The notes under the pieces: generated by a model
Told to the model about the DNA's origin: nothing
Seen by the model: the letters and a program-made list of their open reading frames with translations, nothing else
Database searches by the model: none
Shown: piece after piece, positions 32,447 to 44,709 of the stretch
Layout: each line of letters opens with the position of its first letter
How positions within the stretch are numbered: position 1 is the first letter of the stretch
Position numbers and translations under genes: made by a program
Origin: a virus
Reading direction: 5' to 3' (one strand)
Virus record (IMG/VR): IMGVR_UViG_3300029985_000069
Coordinates: 1 to 44,709 of that record
Length of the DNA stretch: 44,709 nucleotides

Positions 32447-32490
32447 AAAAAAATAGGGCACTCTCTAATTAAAGAGAGTGCCCTATTTTT
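32447..32490. terminator. Bidirectional terminator between convergent operons
   Basis: A perfect 16-bp stem AAATAGGGCACTCTCT / AGAGAGTGCCCTATTT (32451-32466 with 32473-32488), with A-runs on the left and T-runs on the right, so it works on both strands. The stop codon of the RNase H gene lies inside the right arm. Confidence 0.95.
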
Positions 32491-33311: not shown

Positions 33312-34090
33312 TCAAACGCCTTTGACGGGGATATGTCAACGTCGCCACCGTCCCGGTACCCATCATTATATCCGGTTCCACGTTTCGACGTAAATCGTTC
33401 ACTAACTAGATTCAATCCCTTCTTTTTAGTGAACGCTTTCACGTTCTCTTTTTGTTGTTCGACAGTTTCGGCCACAACTATAGCAAAAGTTGTTTCCGTA
33501 TCTTTGGTTATAAGATCGGTTAAAGTTGACTGCAAACGAACGCAGATTCTTTGCGCGCATCCCTGCTTCCAAGACGCTGTGTATTCTCTAGGTTTCAGAC
33601 CCCCTGGAAGAAACAGTTCCTTCATGCGCAATCGTCGCTGAACATCGTACAGAGCTTCCTTGGAAAGTTCCTCAATCTGAGTTTCTAACCAGTTGTAGAT
33701 TTGAAGTGTAGCAAATCGGTTGTATTCTGTACCGATTAGTCGCATTTTTCTTACCTGAACTTTGCGTCGAGTTCCGCGCACATAACTGTACTCGTTTTCC
33801 CAGTAGCATAAACATCTATCAATACCCGATATAGTATTAATTAAGACATCTTTCCATGCCGATCTATTCGACACTTCTTTGATGGTTTCTTCGCCTACTT
33901 CTTGAGACACGACGGGAACATCTTCTGATGCTATCTTAACCGTCTCAATATCGGACATAGTTAGCCCGTGTTCAATCATCATCTTTTGGGCAATCATTGC
34001 CGCTGATGTTGCTTCTTCTTCTGTAGCACCATTCTCTACTGTTTTTCGAAGCATTGCTTCAAGCCTTTTTAGTAGCTTTTCTTCTGCCAA
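33308..34090 (-). CDS. DUF2786-domain protein
   Basis: I chose TTG 34090 because GGGAGG lies six bases upstream; the longer in-frame start at 34126 would fall next to the terminator stem. The 261-residue product begins with the DUF2786 helix pair (EKLLKRLEAMLRKTVENG, then EEATSAAMIAQKMMIEHGL), followed by a longer helical domain with YNRFATLQIYNWL and EYTASWKQGCAQRI. This family is common in phages and plasmids; its biochemical role is unknown. Confidence 0.8.
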   Translation of the reverse strand: MAEEKLLKRLEAMLRKTVENGATEEEATSAAMIAQKMMIEHGLTMSDIETVKIASEDVPVVSQEVGEETIKEVSNRSAWKDVLINTISGIDRCLCYWENEYSYVRGTRRKVQVRKMRLIGTEYNRFATLQIYNWLETQIEELSKEALYDVQRRLRMKELFLPGGLKPREYTASWKQGCAQRICVRLQSTLTDLITKDTETTFAIVVAETVEQQKENVKAFTKKKGLNLVSERFTSKRGTGYNDGYRDGGDVDISPSKAFE

Positions 34091-34126
34091 TTTAGTCCTC
34101 CCTTCTCCATACATTTTCAAACGCAA

Positions 34127-34162
34127 AATAAGGCCCCTAACCTGTCGATTAGGGGCCTTATT
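34127..34162 (-). terminator. Leftward terminator
   Basis: A perfect 14-bp stem AATAAGGCCCCTAA / TTAGGGGCCTTATT with an 8-base loop. On the minus strand it continues as TTATTTTG. It ends the transcript of the acidic protein gene at 34183-34545; read-through would feed the DUF2786 operon. Confidence 0.88.
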
Positions 34163-34182
34163 CTAGGGACCGGATTTATCGA

Positions 34183-34545
34183 TTACTCGGCGGCGTCCTC
34201 GTCCTCATCTTCGTCCGCTACGGATGCCCCGCGCTTTTGGTCGAATTCCATCGCATCGCCGACCGGGTGACCCTTCTCATCAACACCCTGGAAAAGAATG
34301 TCCAAACCGATCGTTGGAAGTTCCTTGATTTGAGTGAGGATTTCCTTGCGCTTAGGGTCGTCTTTTTCGAGATCCTTGACAGACAGGCCCATCTGCTTCG
34401 AAAGATAGCGTCGAACCCACTTCTGAAGATCATCCGCGAATGTGTTTGCTTTGCCGGCAGTTGCGAGAGCGATTCCGCCTGCCTTGTCTGTATCCTCAAA
34501 CTGTGCGGGAACGACGATAAAAACACCTTTCAACTTTTTAGCCAT
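34183..34545 (-). CDS. Unknown acidic-tailed protein
   Basis: A 120-residue protein with a strand-like start (KLKGVFIVVPAQF), a helical middle, and a C-terminus of alternating Asp/Glu (ADEDEDEDAAE). Acidic tails occur on DNA mimics and SSB-like proteins, but no family is recognised. It has its own promoter, a strong AAAGGAG ribosome site and its own terminator, so it is a highly expressed single-gene unit. Confidence 0.75.
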   Translation of the reverse strand: MAKKLKGVFIVVPAQFEDTDKAGGIALATAGKANTFADDLQKWVRRYLSKQMGLSVKDLEKDDPKRKEILTQIKELPTIGLDILFQGVDEKGHPVGDAMEFDQKRGASVADEDEDEDAAE

Positions 34546-34624
34546 TTAAGACTCCTTTTTTTGATTCGATTTTTGATTGAAGCAATCAGACCGTTTTACT
34601 TGCCGTTCGCTTCATCTGATTAGT

Positions 34625-34653
34625 ATTATCTCACATTCCAGAAAGGAATGCAA
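34625..34653 (-). promoter_or_regulatory. Leftward promoter with a dyad in the spacer
   Basis: On the minus strand TTGCAT (34653-34648), a 17-base spacer and GATAAT (34630-34625) preceded by TGA (extended -10). CATTCC-AGAAA-GGAATG (34634-34650) is an inverted repeat covering the spacer. The untranslated stretch 34546-34714 holds this promoter and the leader; nothing else is seen. Confidence 0.7.
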
Positions 34654-34714
34654 GGGTTTTGGAAAGAATTTCGAAAAATTCTTTTCAGTGACAAATTAGG
34701 CTCAATGAGACTAA

Positions 34715-35032
34715 TTAAGGACGGTTTGCGCTTTCTACGTCTGTACGTGTAACCGGCGGTATAACGTCTTGACTTGTATTAATGGCGCGTGTTGGGTCAT
34801 TGACGGGGATTTCGGCACCCTGTTCTTTAACCGTCGTTAAAACGGCTGTAGCTTCTCGGATAGCTGTACCGGTTCGAATCCCGGTATCTGCCCTGAGATA
34901 TACAGAACAATTTGCGTCCATCAAATTCCGTCTAATTGCGTCCGCTTTAACTACTGCTAAAACTTCTTCAATTGAGTAGGTGAGAGTGCTTTCAGACTTG
35001 CTATTTAAGATCATCTTACTTAAAGGAACCAA
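34715..35032 (-). CDS. Unknown small protein
   Basis: A 105-residue protein if it starts at TTG 35032 (AGGA seven bases upstream), or 99 residues from ATG 35014. It has a helix (SIEEVLAVVKADAIRRNL) and a Thr/Val-rich second half. No family is recognised. The start region lies in element R3. Part of the gene, read on the other strand, looks like a tRNA T-arm (see rejected items). Confidence 0.55.
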   Translation of the reverse strand: MVPLSKMILNSKSESTLTYSIEEVLAVVKADAIRRNLMDANCSVYLRADTGIRTGTAIREATAVLTTVKEQGAEIPVNDPTRAINTSQDVIPPVTRTDVESANRP

Positions 35033-35120
35033 TTTTGGGTCCTGTTATTGTGACAGGACCCCGCTAGAAGGACGGGACGACTAAGAACCCGTCTCAGTAC
35101 CCCCCTCAGACGTCCGGTTC
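35020..35120 (+). repeat. GC-rich structured element R3
   Basis: It starts TTAAAGGAACCAATTTTGG (compare R2) and has GGGACGACTAAGAAC (35074-35088) and CCCTCAGAC (35103-35111). Two stems are visible: GGGTCCTGT/ACAGGACCC (35037-35045 with 35053-35061), and GACGGG with CCCGTC around the ACGACTAAGAA loop. It is in the same orientation as R1 and R2 although the genes here run leftward. It supplies the last codons of the next gene. Confidence 0.65.
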
Positions 35121-35587
35121 CCCCGTCCCTTACCATGATGGTCTACCGTGGGTATCGTTTCTGAGGTTTCCGCGACCTCAGACGTTTGGAGCTTTTCGGG
35201 CTCAATTTGCGGGTTATTATTTGATGTTTCTTCCGCTTCAATTGCCTTGGTTTTTGTCGCAACAATTGAGTCGAATTCATCCATCAAAAACTCCTGAAAG
35301 TATCCTTCACTTCCAGAGAGTGAAATGTAGTCCTCAGCAGGGACCTCAATTTGGTCGTAATTGATCTCGTCCAAACGAACCGGAACAAGACCCAACAATT
35401 GAGCGCCAATTGCGTTGAAGTTTGGTATATCAACTTCTGGTGGAAACCCGATCACCTTTTTATATGCCCGAACGATGCCACGTTTTACCAGATCGTGAAA
35501 CTGTTTTGCTTGATCTTGATTAGCGAATGTGAATGGTACACTTTCGCTCAATCGAAGCGCCATAATTAGCTTCTTGCGCTTTGCCAT
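35081..35587 (-). CDS. Unknown protein
   Basis: A 168-residue protein with AAGGGAGG before the ATG. Residues 1-105 form a compact acidic domain (LVKRGIVRAYKKVIGFPPEV). The C-terminal 60 residues are low-complexity Glu/Thr/Ser and end GKGRGNRTSEGGTETGS, where the coding sequence runs into element R3. No family is recognised. Confidence 0.7.
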   Translation of the reverse strand: MAKRKKLIMALRLSESVPFTFANQDQAKQFHDLVKRGIVRAYKKVIGFPPEVDIPNFNAIGAQLLGLVPVRLDEINYDQIEVPAEDYISLSGSEGYFQEFLMDEFDSIVATKTKAIEAEETSNNNPQIEPEKLQTSEVAETSETIPTVDHHGKGRGNRTSEGGTETGS

Positions 35588-35588
35588 T

Positions 35589-35699
35589 CTAACCTCCCTT
35601 ATCCTTTTGAATTTGGATAATATACTTGTCGAGTTTCACCATTCCCCAGTGACAGATAAAGCCACCGGTAAACGTGATACAGAATTGAACGAATGTCAT
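35589..35699 (-). CDS. Tiny hydrophobic protein (36 residues)
   Basis: An ORF of 36 codons that begins MTFVQFCITFTGGFICHWG and ends in a basic tail. AAGGTGG lies eight bases before the ATG, and the ATG overlaps the stop of the preceding gene (ATGA), which supports real translation. The N-terminal half could enter a membrane. Function unknown. Confidence 0.6.
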   Translation of the reverse strand: MTFVQFCITFTGGFICHWGMVKLDKYIIQIQKDKGG

Positions 35700-36166
35700 A
35701 GGTCTAACCACCTTTGGAAGTTTCCGTCGATATGTGCGAACGGACGGTCAAAATACTTAGGGTCTTTATTTTCGGAAAATTTAAGACCTTCTTCTGGACG
35801 TAAAACAGAGCCTTTTACTTTCGCGGCACGTTGGCAAACTTGACGTATCTTTAACGCCAATCTTGTCTGCCATCCTTTAACGCGAGTTGTGTAAGGAACT
35901 TTGCCCTTCACATTAGACCATGCTTCGACGCCATTTTTGTTGCTCAAATACTGTAGATAAATCCGTATGGAATCTTCGCCGGTTGCGTCTGCGATTTCGT
36001 TCGCTCCGACCGATGATCTAACCAGTATTCTGAGTTGCGGATTAGGCAGAATCATAGCGTAGATATGCTCGTTTTGATTCATGCCTAAATGAGTGAATTG
36101 ATTGCCCTTAGTAGGCTTAGGTAAAGCGGCTTCAAAATCCGCCTTACTAAATGCCTCAGTTGCCAT
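35696..36166 (-). CDS. Unknown basic protein, possibly nucleic-acid binding
   Basis: A 156-residue protein with mixed strands in the first half (NEHIYAMILPNPQLRILVRS) and a basic helical second half (TRVKGWQTRLALKIRQVCQRAA). The overall look could suit an SSB-like or DNA-binding fold, but no signature is clear. It follows the AAA+ ATPase gene in the same operon. Confidence 0.7.
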   Translation of the reverse strand: MATEAFSKADFEAALPKPTKGNQFTHLGMNQNEHIYAMILPNPQLRILVRSSVGANEIADATGEDSIRIYLQYLSNKNGVEAWSNVKGKVPYTTRVKGWQTRLALKIRQVCQRAAKVKGSVLRPEEGLKFSENKDPKYFDRPFAHIDGNFQRWLDL

Positions 36167-38108: not shown

Positions 38109-38227
38109 CGCCCACCCTTGCGCATTACGGCCCGTTCGGTTCGGTAGTTTTTAGCGGTAGCGTTCCGCTTATCACGTCGATTGTATCGCTGAATATCAGC
38201 ACTTCGAATTAGTTTGACTTTAGGCAT
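38105..38227 (-). CDS. Tiny, very basic protein (40 residues)
   Basis: An ORF of 40 codons in which about a third of the residues are Arg or Lys (QRYNRRDKRNATAKNYRTER). Its stop overlaps the next start (ATGA). GGGGAT lies a few bases before the ATG. A nucleic-acid-binding peptide is plausible. It follows a leftward terminator and so is the first gene of the next unit, although no promoter is obvious. Confidence 0.6.
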   Translation of the reverse strand: MPKVKLIRSADIQRYNRRDKRNATAKNYRTERAVMRKGGR

Positions 38228-38300
38228 AGTTTTATCCCCACTTACTAAGTGGCTTTTCCTTCCAGAAAACGCACGATTTTCACGCCCGATAAAACAAGAA

Positions 38301-38338
38301 ACCCGTCTACTATTTTCGCAGCCAGCGAGTAGACGGGT
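38301..38338 (-). terminator. Leftward terminator
   Basis: A perfect 11-bp stem ACCCGTCTACT / AGTAGACGGGT with a 16-base loop; on the minus strand it is followed by TTCTTGTTTT. Confidence 0.8.
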
Positions 38339-38384
38339 AACACGACAAAAACAATGGTCTTTTTACTCTAGGTTATAGCCCCTG

Positions 38385-38573
38385 TTACAGATAGCGAATC
38401 TTCCACATACTCCACACTTGAATACGGGAAATTGGTCGTATGTTTTTGGAGAGGTATACGTCAAGAACTATAGTGTATAAGTTCTTGACGTAAATCACGC
38501 AGTCAAACCAGCCAAACATAGGCCGATAGACTATGCGAAACCAGTTGAAAATAGTGGTGTAAGTAAAGGTCAA
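38385..38573 (-). CDS. Doubtful small hydrophobic ORF (62 residues)
   Basis: TTG 38573 overlaps the stop of the upstream ORF and has GGGGG six bases before it. The product is rich in Trp, Phe, Tyr and Ile (FNWFRIVYRPMFGWF) with no charged core. A perfect 12-bp inverted repeat lies inside it, so the stretch may instead be a regulatory spacer. Confidence 0.35.
   Translation of the reverse strand: MTFTYTTIFNWFRIVYRPMFGWFDCVIYVKNLYTIVLDVYLSKNIRPISRIQVWSMWKIRYL
38458..38491. repeat. Perfect 12-bp inverted repeat
   Basis: ACGTCAAGAACT (38458-38469) and AGTTCTTGACGT (38480-38491) are separated by ten bases (ATAGTGTATA). No T-run follows on either strand. The arms contain the GTCAAG/CTTGAC core also seen at the 20.7 and 31.3 kb promoters. 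Confidence 0.75.
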
Positions 38574-38698
38574 AACTTACCCCCATTATCCTTCAAAAAA
38601 TTGCGAAAATAGATGAACAAAATGGCTAAGATTATAGAGCCAAAAAGATAGGCCAAAGGTTCCAAGGCAGAAAGTATTTGATAGTTGTTATAATTCAT
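38570..38698 (-). CDS. Small single-pass membrane protein (42 residues)
   Basis: An ORF of 42 codons: a polar start (MNYNNYQ), one membrane helix (LAYLFGSIILAILFIYF), and a basic end (RNFLKDNGGKF). Its ATG overlaps the previous stop (ATGA) with ACGGAGG a short way upstream. The topology is convincing for a small inner-membrane peptide. Function unknown. Confidence 0.7.
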   Translation of the reverse strand: MNYNNYQILSALEPLAYLFGSIILAILFIYFRNFLKDNGGKF

Positions 38699-38844
38699 GC
38701 CATAAAACCTCCGTAATCCCAGTCTCTTTGTGTCATGCAAACTTCATCGAATCTCGGTACAGAAGCAAGCCACGTACCCATTATATCAACATTTGGAAAG
38801 ATCCAATAAGCGATACCGTTTCTAATGCGGATTTGAATTCTCAT
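38695..38844 (-). CDS. Unknown small protein (49 residues)
   Basis: An ORF of 49 codons with GAGGAC before the ATG. It has a compact aromatic sequence (NGIAYWIFPNVDIMGTW, then RDWDYGGFMA). Its end couples to the membrane peptide gene. Confidence 0.65.
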   Translation of the reverse strand: MRIQIRIRNGIAYWIFPNVDIMGTWLASVPRFDEVCMTQRDWDYGGFMA

Positions 38845-38945
38845 TTTGTCCTCATAAAATGTGCCGGTTTCTTACCACCACCGGCAAGGTGTAGCGCACT
38901 GATAAACCGCTAGACTCCTAGAACGGTAACCGGCTGTAAGACGTG

Positions 38946-42783: not shown

Positions 42784-42826
42784 ACCCTTCAAAAAGGGTA
42801 ATGGTACTCCCTGGATTAAGAGTACC
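42784..42826 (-). terminator. Possible leftward hairpin pair
   Basis: On the minus strand GGTACTC/GAGTACC and then ACCCTT/AAGGGT with a TTTG loop, followed by GCTTTT. Together they may slow or end transcription from the 42872-43162 gene. A CCTAAGA/TCTTAGG hairpin also lies at about 42866-42885. Confidence 0.45.
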
Positions 42827-42871
42827 ACCAGCACGATTCTTACGCCTGCTGATTGCTGATTGTCCTAAGAA

Positions 42872-43162
42872 CTAAATCTTAGGAGTAGGGTTGTAGTGAT
42901 CTTCGGTGAGATCGACACCGGCGTTAAACGCCAATTCGAGGACATAGAAGAACTTTTCAAGTTCAGCATTTTTGCGCGAATCTTCGATGCGCTTTTGTCC
43001 CGTAATTCGAGCATGTTCGCAGATAATGTAATCCGCGAGTTCACCGTTACAAGAAAGGACTTCCGAAAGTACGTCAGAAATGCCATCGGACTTCAGTACC
43101 GAAACGGTACTCTCTTTTCGTAGCGGGGAGATCACTTTTGAAGCAATTTTGATTGAATACAT
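42872..43162 (-). CDS. Unknown helical protein
   Basis: A 96-residue acidic, helical protein with AAAGGA eight bases before the ATG. It is the first gene of the leftward region. The C-terminal half (KNAELEKFFYVLELAFNAG) is a likely dimer helix. No family is recognised. Confidence 0.65.
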   Translation of the reverse strand: MYSIKIASKVISPLRKESTVSVLKSDGISDVLSEVLSCNGELADYIICEHARITGQKRIEDSRKNAELEKFFYVLELAFNAGVDLTEDHYNPTPKI

Positions 43163-43186
43163 GGTTGTTTTCCTTTATTGCGTCCT

Positions 43187-44131
43187 ATACGCAAAATTCA
43201 ACGTACCTTAATACGCTCAATTTTGAGTATCTAACTTATAAGGCAAAACATGATTAAGTACCGCTATATAAGTAATCAATGATGACACGCAAGAACGCGC
43301 CATACTTTCGCTAGAGTAAACTCTTTGCGATTGTATGGCGTTTTGATGTTCGTTTTGTGGTTATGTTTGACTACCGCAAACGGTACTTAATCGTTGTTTT
43401 ATAGTTTTGACGAACGGTAAACGCTACGCATAGCGTTGAATCCATAGTGATTATGTACTGTTTTTAGCTAAACAGTTAACTGTATTTTGAATGATTGTTT
43501 CTTGAAGTTCATTCGTACTTTAGTAGTGTTGAGTCGTTACGGTTTAGAGTGACGATTACTGTTAGTTCTGATTCTTACAAAAAGTGTTACTTTTGTTGAC
43601 AAGAAACGTACCATAGTAGCTTAATTCTTTAGTGATTTAGCCTTAACTATGCGCTACTTTATACTAATGCGCATTTTAGTCCTATTAAACACCCTGATTA
43701 CATTACGATAAACGACGTGATTAAAAGATCATTTTAACCCGTTTCGCTTACTTTCGTTTAAGCAGGTAATAGACGTATGTTTAGGTAACTATTTTCTTAC
43801 GGTTACTTGCATAAGGTACAGCTTTAATAAGGACACGTCCTTACTACTTTTGTTTTACACGTTTCACCATAGCGGTTAGTAGTTACTTTTTTACGTGATT
43901 GTTTAGGACAAGGTATTGCATCACGAACTGTTTATGGTTTACAGTTAACCCTAAGAGTGATTAACGATATGTATGAGGTCCTATACGTCATACATACTTT
44001 CCTATGGGGAAAATACGTTTCACAATCACATTTTGCGTTTCAAAATGCGGAAAACTTTTAAGACTCCAAGGACGCCGGGGGATTCGTTTCTTACCCCTCT
44101 TTCGAAATCAGCTAACCGTTAACTGATTTCG
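43187..44131. other. Gene-free region with a dense series of hairpins and palindromes
   Basis: About 0.95 kb with no credible ORF on either strand. Inverted repeats found by eye include: GATTAAGTACCG/CGGTACTTAATC (43252-43263 with 43381-43392) enclosing CGCCATAC/GTATGGCG (43298-43305 with 43333-43340) and AGAGT/ACTCT (43313-43324); AACGCTA/TAGCGTT (43420-43437); ACTGTTT/AAACAGT (43457-43476); ACAGTTAACTGT (43472-43483); AATGCGCATT (43666-43675); TAAGGAC/GTCCTTA (43828-43843); AACTGT/ACAGTT (43926-43946); TATGTATGA/TCATACATA (43968-43996); CATTTTG/CAAAATG (44029-44047); CGAAATCAG/CTGATTTCG (44103-44131). Function unknown; an origin, a packaging or control region, or structured RNAs are possible. 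Confidence 0.65.
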
Positions 44132-44264
44132 CCTGTCCATGTTCCAGTCCTTCCCGTTACCGGTTCCGACTGACACAAACATGATGCGCCATTCGAAGAA
44201 ACTTTGCAAGCCTTTTTTGAGAAAAAATAGTAAGAATTTTCTAACCTTAATTTGAATCGAAATA

Positions 44265-44273
44265 TGCTATTAT
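44265..44273 (+). promoter_or_regulatory. Possible extended -10 element
   Basis: TGCTATTAT (44265-44273) fits TGnTATNNT, with no convincing -35 in front. It could start transcription toward the gene at 44450 across the alternating purine-pyrimidine tract. Support is weak. Confidence 0.3.
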
Positions 44274-44314
44274 CGCGCACGCTTTTACTGGACGCAAAAA
44301 GGTTGCAAAATGCT

Positions 44315-44342
44315 TACGCGTATGCGCGTGTATGTGCGCGTG
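44315..44342. other. 28-bp alternating purine-pyrimidine tract (Z-DNA-prone)
   Basis: Every step from T44315 to G44342 alternates pyrimidine and purine, mostly CG and TG steps, the composition most prone to left-handed Z-DNA. A second 15-base alternating run lies at about 44352-44366. The stretch has a local excess of GCGC unlike the AT-rich flanks. ORFs crossing it on both strands look like composition artefacts. Confidence 0.75.
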
Positions 44343-44449
44343 AATTGCGCGATACGCACGTATGTAAAGTTTGCGCGGATATGTGAACAAACAGGACGCG
44401 CAAAAAAGTTTGCATTTTTTGGCTCAAATTGTAGTAAGATATTCGAACG

Positions 44450-44709
44450 ATGCAAACATATATGCAAACTGAGAAAACGATTCCAAGTTTCGAACCGTCT
44501 AGCGTGAATTTAGGCAACGTTCGAAACGGCTCAAACCATTACAACAAAAACGACGTCGAAATCAAGCGCAAAATTACTGCAAAGAAAGCGATAAATTCAG
44601 ACTGGCTATTCAACTTCGAACGGTTGCAAACGGTACAGAGTAAGACTCGTTTAATTGCGCAATTGCGAAAAATCGCCAAAATGCATGGTTATAAAATCGA
44701 CTGCATAGA
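44450..44709 (+). CDS. N-terminal part of an unknown protein (truncated by the window)
   Basis: From ATG 44450 the frame is open for 86 codons to the window end. The product is basic and polar (SNHYNKNDVEIKRKITAKKA), with a helical later part (RLIAQLRKIAKMHGYKIDC). An in-frame ATG at 44462 follows a repeated ATGCAAAC. No ribosome site is clear. A DNA-binding or terminase-small-subunit-like role cannot be judged from this fragment. Confidence 0.6.
   Translation, partial: MQTYMQTEKTIPSFEPSSVNLGNVRNGSNHYNKNDVEIKRKITAKKAINSDWLFNFERLQTVQSKTRLIAQLRKIAKMHGYKIDCI

Follow-up and report, generated by a model that had tools for sequence, protein, structure and literature searches.

What does a phage keep in nearly 1 kb of DNA that has no credible gene and is crowded with hairpins? 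Such a locus lies at 43187-44131 of virus record IMGVR_UViG_3300029985_000069, whose 44,709 bases were analysed at full length and are referred to below as the window. The initial annotation offered three answers: an origin, a control region, or an array of structured RNAs. Structured RNA is the best supported of these, in the form of one ~1-kb leader rather than an array, and an origin of the DnaA type found no support. We give about an even chance to the reading that the leftward operon has here a ~1-kb structured RNA, either its 5' leader or a non-coding RNA. Few long structured RNAs are known from phages, and among the best-known classes there are some that have no known function. If real, this one would be a ~1 kb candidate from a phage lineage without close relatives in the searched collections, and its location would match that of the early takeover RNAs of mycobacteriophages.

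Gene setting and non-coding character

The proteins encoded in the window include tape-measure, DUF2460 and GTA-like tail proteins, DNA polymerase A, a Toprim primase, helicases, an RNase H-like protein and a weak thymidylate-synthase-like match. No terminase or capsid genes were seen among the window proteins examined, and the record therefore probably represents part of a genome. The genome is probably that of a tailed phage, a virus of bacteria. No tRNA or tmRNA genes were found in the whole 44,709-base window. The genes run rightward from 1 to ~30 kb and mostly leftward from ~33 to 43 kb. The hairpin-rich region divides the leftward block, consisting mostly of unknown genes, from a rightward ORF truncated at the contig end. 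This position, upstream of the leftward genes and left of a rightward gene, is as the initial annotation described it (Table 1). Structure models of the two proteins encoded on either side were of low confidence.

At 956 nt, the gap exceeds every other gene-free gap that one rule picked out in 43 stretches of related contigs and the window. The window's genes were said to abut or overlap, but they do not do so everywhere: an 837-nt gap at 38109-38945 contains small ORFs. This gap lies in the leftward block and carries a 13-bp hairpin (38457-38492) and an 11-bp hairpin (38301-38338); several short ORFs in it, leftward and of 32-62 codons, may be genuine small genes. Strong perfect hairpins are also found between leftward genes at 34127-34162 (14 bp), 34663-34684 (9 bp) and 35037-35061 (9 bp), and are possible processing or terminator sites. 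At 32449-32490, where convergent genes meet, lies an 18-bp perfect stem whose ends carry A and T runs; it is likely a bidirectional terminator.

The region 43187-44131 is non-coding by open-frame, period-3 and ribosome-site tests. Stop-free runs in 43163-44190 reach at most 62 codons against a shuffled mean of 77, and the longest open frames also fall below shuffles when TAG, TGA or TAA is read as sense. The period-3 power of 1.16 is under the shuffled 95th percentile of 1.33, indicating no codon periodicity; 13 windows sampled elsewhere gave values of 1.07-16.9, and 12 of them exceeded 2. No start codon in 43163-44190 combines an SD-like site with a frame of more than 20 codons. The absence of a credible ORF reported initially is borne out by these results, and a coding gene, including one with altered stop codons, is ruled out by the open-frame lengths and the period-3 power.

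Several sequence patterns were noted to the right of the region. An alternating purine-pyrimidine stretch rich in CG/TG (ACGCGTATGCGCGTGTATGTGCGCGTG...) occupies 44310-44400, upstream of the rightward ORF, and a 12-bp unit is repeated 2.5 times in tandem at 44323-44351. CGCGCA occurs six times in 44132-44460 versus 16 times in the first 43 kb. TGCAAA is found seven times (either strand) and ATGCAAAC three times in 44203-44630; these repeats may represent a binding motif around the rightward gene start.

Hairpin excess and predicted fold

The region contains more hairpins than its shuffled sequences. When perfect stems with loops of 3-12 were counted, five stems of at least 7 bp were observed versus 0.83 expected (P 0.0025), and ten of at least 6 bp versus 3.0 expected, a number reached in 0 of 2000 shuffles. 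The stem excess proposed by the initial annotation thus survived shuffling, and its estimate of fewer than one chance 7-bp hairpin was right. The 12-bp palindrome ACAGTTAACTGT is present where it had been placed, and the 12-bp pair 43252-43263/43381-43392, 117 nt apart with a nested hairpin inside, is real. Taken singly, these features are not significant: palindromes of at least 12 bp have a P of 0.30, and the 12-bp pair a P of 0.05. A strand-neutral inverted-repeat score allowing mismatches is only ~2 sd above shuffles. Because single features are not significant and the mismatch-tolerant score is this low, the hairpin excess is considered real but moderate. Bins at 34021-35910 equal the region in the number of 6-bp stems.

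Folding of 43163-44190 gave a minimum free energy of -273.3 on the minus strand compared to -220.8 (sd 8.2) in shuffles, a z of -6.4; the plus-strand fold has a z of -4.8. The minus strand forms 332 base pairs versus 294 in shuffles (z 4.1) and the plus strand 322 versus 310 (z 1.35). Nucleotides paired at p > 0.6 number 478 on the minus strand versus 316 (sd 71) in shuffles (z 2.3), and 310 on the plus strand versus 350 (z -0.5). Within the region, the confident-pair excess is restricted to the minus strand; by the same measure, coding strands of the phage also exceed shuffles, with z of 0.2 to 1.65. The energy excess of the region, -48 kcal/mol, is beyond all 45 other 945-nt window-strand samples of the phage (mean -13.6 kcal/mol; lowest -43.9). 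Coding windows also out-fold dinucleotide shuffles, one of them at z -8.3 (12 shuffles), and therefore the energy signal by itself stands out only moderately: it is the most extreme, yet not far outside.

Base composition also bears on the strand. The A/T skew of 43187-44131 is -0.117, similar to that of the leftward genes (-0.107) and opposite in sign to that of the rightward genes (+0.075); the 38109-38945 gap departs from this rule. The GC skew does not track the leftward genes, and counts of G-T versus A-C mismatches in imperfect stems favour neither strand.

The structure begins near 44181, ~50 nt beyond the interval first described, with a 5' hairpin that reads CAGUC GGAA CCG GUAA CGG GAAG GACUG. 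In the predicted minus-strand fold the flanks are more certain than the middle part, which includes the hairpins 43750-43709, 43476-43457 and 43437-43420, and folding in 150-nt steps across the central part (43500-43950) shows no local excess. A covariance model of the rod, R1, scores 191.9 bits on the minus strand and 45.4 on the plus strand, a difference that arises by construction. The terminator scan gave 5 terminator-like sites compared to 2.2 in shuffles, none of them within 44190-43163 on the minus strand. On neither strand was a promoter found that exceeds the shuffle level.

Table 1. Features of the hairpin-rich region and its borders (p, pairing probability; a dot marks features assigned to neither strand)
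Feature	Position	Strand	Basis
Rightward ORF, truncated at contig end	44450-44709	+	ORF list
Possible rightward promoter, TG-extended -10 (TGCTATTAT)	44247-44273	+	Not above shuffles
Candidate ~1-kb structured leader/non-coding RNA of leftward operon	43163-44190	-	No ORF, hairpin excess, z -6.4; putative 5' end
5' hairpin, purine internal loop and GUAA loop	44134-44181	-	p 0.84-0.98; outside initial interval
12-bp hairpin CGAAAUCAGUUA/UAGCUGAUUUCG	44103-44131	-	p 0.99; contains 9-bp perfect stem
Hairpin GCAUUUUG/CAAAAUGU	44028-44048	-	p 0.91
9-bp perfect inverted repeat TATGTATGA/TCATACATA	43968-43996	.	Confident on plus strand only, p 0.97
Hairpin pair TAAGCGA/TCGTTTA, inner CGGGTTAAAA stem	43709-43750	-	p 0.93-0.94
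7-bp hairpin ACTGTTT/AAACAGT (43476-43457), overlapping palindrome ACAGTTAACTGT (43472-43483)	43457-43483	.	Stem scan, pairing
7-bp hairpin AACGCTA/TAGCGTT	43420-43437	.	p 0.92 minus, 0.87 plus
156-nt rod: long stem with 12-bp pair, nested stems to CGCCAUAC/GUAUGGCG	43245-43400	-	Main stems p 0.97-1.00
Closing hairpin, 25 nt ahead of first start codon	43187-43230	-	p 0.94-0.98
First leftward gene, 96 aa	42872-43162	-	AAAGGA precedes ATG; no family found
Terminator-like hairpin 3' of first leftward gene	42799-42830	-	Terminator scan

A proposed structured leader RNA and its rivals

A leftward RNA is favoured because of the strong minus-strand fold, the confident-pair excess on that strand only, and an A/T skew like that of the leftward genes. 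We infer that the region is transcribed, that transcription is leftward, and that the RNA has approximately the boundaries given in Table 1. Transcription would start from a promoter lying right of ~44181 and yield a ~1-kb non-coding structured RNA running into the leftward gene block, either as a long 5' leader or as a leader that releases a stable RNA by cutting. The RNA would fold in order from a series of hairpins through the 156-nt rod to the closing hairpin just before the start codon of the first gene. Its function is a matter of speculation: a likely role would be early in infection, as a stable RNA or as an element of the nascent RNA that controls how the leftward genes are expressed. 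It might do so by protecting from decay, by processing, or by antitermination beyond the terminator-like hairpin at 42830-42799. As a new large phage RNA the region is a credible candidate. The more ambitious claim, that it encodes a new class of ornate ~1 kb phage RNA, unrelated to GOLLD, ROOL or Rfam families and cut from the leader of the leftward operon, is unlikely.

The main rival is a DNA-level control region for divergent transcription, in which the palindromes would be operators for phage or host regulators and the RNA structure a by-product of dyad symmetry. Placement between divergent genes fits this arrangement, as do the structure excess on both strands and the lack of strand bias in the mismatch counts. 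The dyads that could be such operators include ACTGTTT-N6-AAACAGT with ACAGTTAACTGT; ACTGTTT...ACAGTTAAC at 43927 resembles it in part. However, the stem sequences mostly differ from one another, confident pairing rises above shuffles on one strand only, and the long rod is unlike an operator. The 8-mer CAGTTAAC occurs at three sites and was considered as an operator repeat, but it is not significant, since an 8-mer was found at three or more separate sites in 288 of 500 shuffles. Furthermore, ~1 kb is long for an operator region, and a control region here would be an unusually long one. On balance this is a genuine but minor possibility.

That the region serves phage replication, as an origin or for primase loading, is less likely than that it is a control region, and quite improbable. 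The A+T-rich composition (36% GC), the location between divergent genes and the nearby change in the sign of the GC skew are consistent with an origin, and hairpins are found in single-strand initiation sites. Against this, the region has neither DnaA boxes nor iterons, and the skew change is accounted for by gene direction. Only one DnaA-box-like 9-mer (1-mismatch) was found nearby, and it lies outside the region, at 44382. With no cluster of DnaA boxes or iterons in the region, an origin of the DnaA type was rejected; a tandem-repeat RNA antitoxin or iterons were likewise rejected, as no fitting arrays were found.

The region might also be a relic or a neutral spacer, with hairpin numbers that reflect a moderate fluctuation by chance, as the modest strand-neutral score and the comparable numbers of 6-bp stems in other phage bins would allow; the hairpin P of 0.0025 or less and the z of -6.4 on one strand argue against it, and phages rarely retain 1 kb of idle DNA, making this reading very improbable. 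The slimmest chance is given to an RNA read from the plus strand, rightward or antisense, which would agree with the plus-strand fold energy but not with the smaller pair excess, the lack of a confident-pair excess, or the A/T skew of leftward genes.

Relatives and known phage RNAs

The proposed leader RNA has no recognizable relatives in the collections searched. No nucleotide match to 42865-44709 was found in 50,697 phage records, Mycobacterium phages included, and no sequence homologues of the region were found in plasmid, phage or E. coli records. Exact-pattern matches in IMG/VR and GTDB were mostly within long open frames and did not extend. The nearest phages, identified through six proteins or alignments, have replication genes in common at ~22-39% identity, and none closer than ~39% over shared replication genes was found in collections that may lack near records. 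Conserved stems could thus be sought only in distant relatives, and no homologue of the region was found there; single-sequence covariance models of the rod (R1) and of the 5' part (R2) produced no convincing match in related contigs. A 692-nt gene-free stretch of one distant relative (L155:3543-4234) folds weakly (z about -2.7). Another distantly related phage contig (L151, 8888-9300) carries, within a 413-nt gap free of genes, a giant imperfect hairpin with z -9.4; no covariance-model link between this hairpin and the region was found.

The HK022 put RNA is a nascent-RNA antitermination leader. As in the present region, hairpins are located at the start of a phage operon and a terminator-like hairpin lies further on; the put sites are ~70 nt, in contrast to ~1 kb here.

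GOLLD and ROOL RNAs (Rfam; PMC12286853) are, like the candidate, phage-borne, hundreds of nucleotides long and rich in hairpins. The region matches no Rfam family at the gathering score, and 43000-44500 has only chance-level matches (E 1.5 or above), so GOLLD, ROOL or any other known RNA family was rejected. The fold of the candidate is a predicted one. There are also no tRNA genes here; proximity to tRNA islands is frequent in GOLLD and ROOL without being strictly required, and the window probably covers only part of a genome.

The closest parallel in position is with the mycobacteriophages L5, D29 and StarStuff, in which an abundant, processed non-coding RNA is made from Pleft upstream of the leftward early operon (PMC5712189). 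In these cluster A mycobacteriophages the Pleft transcribed region is ~500 bp, has no ORF longer than ~30 codons, and was reported by the authors to be toxic to the host (PMC5712189). Like the Pleft RNA, the candidate would be large and would come from a non-coding stretch without long ORFs directly upstream of a leftward gene block; both sit at the right end of the sequence or close to it. The Pleft RNA is a ~500-nt abundant transcript with a promoter and a termination/processing zone, whereas the candidate is ~1 kb and predicted from sequence; the phage has a different gene set, and the region has no nucleotide match in the phage collection. The likeness is an analogy of place and kind, not of descent.
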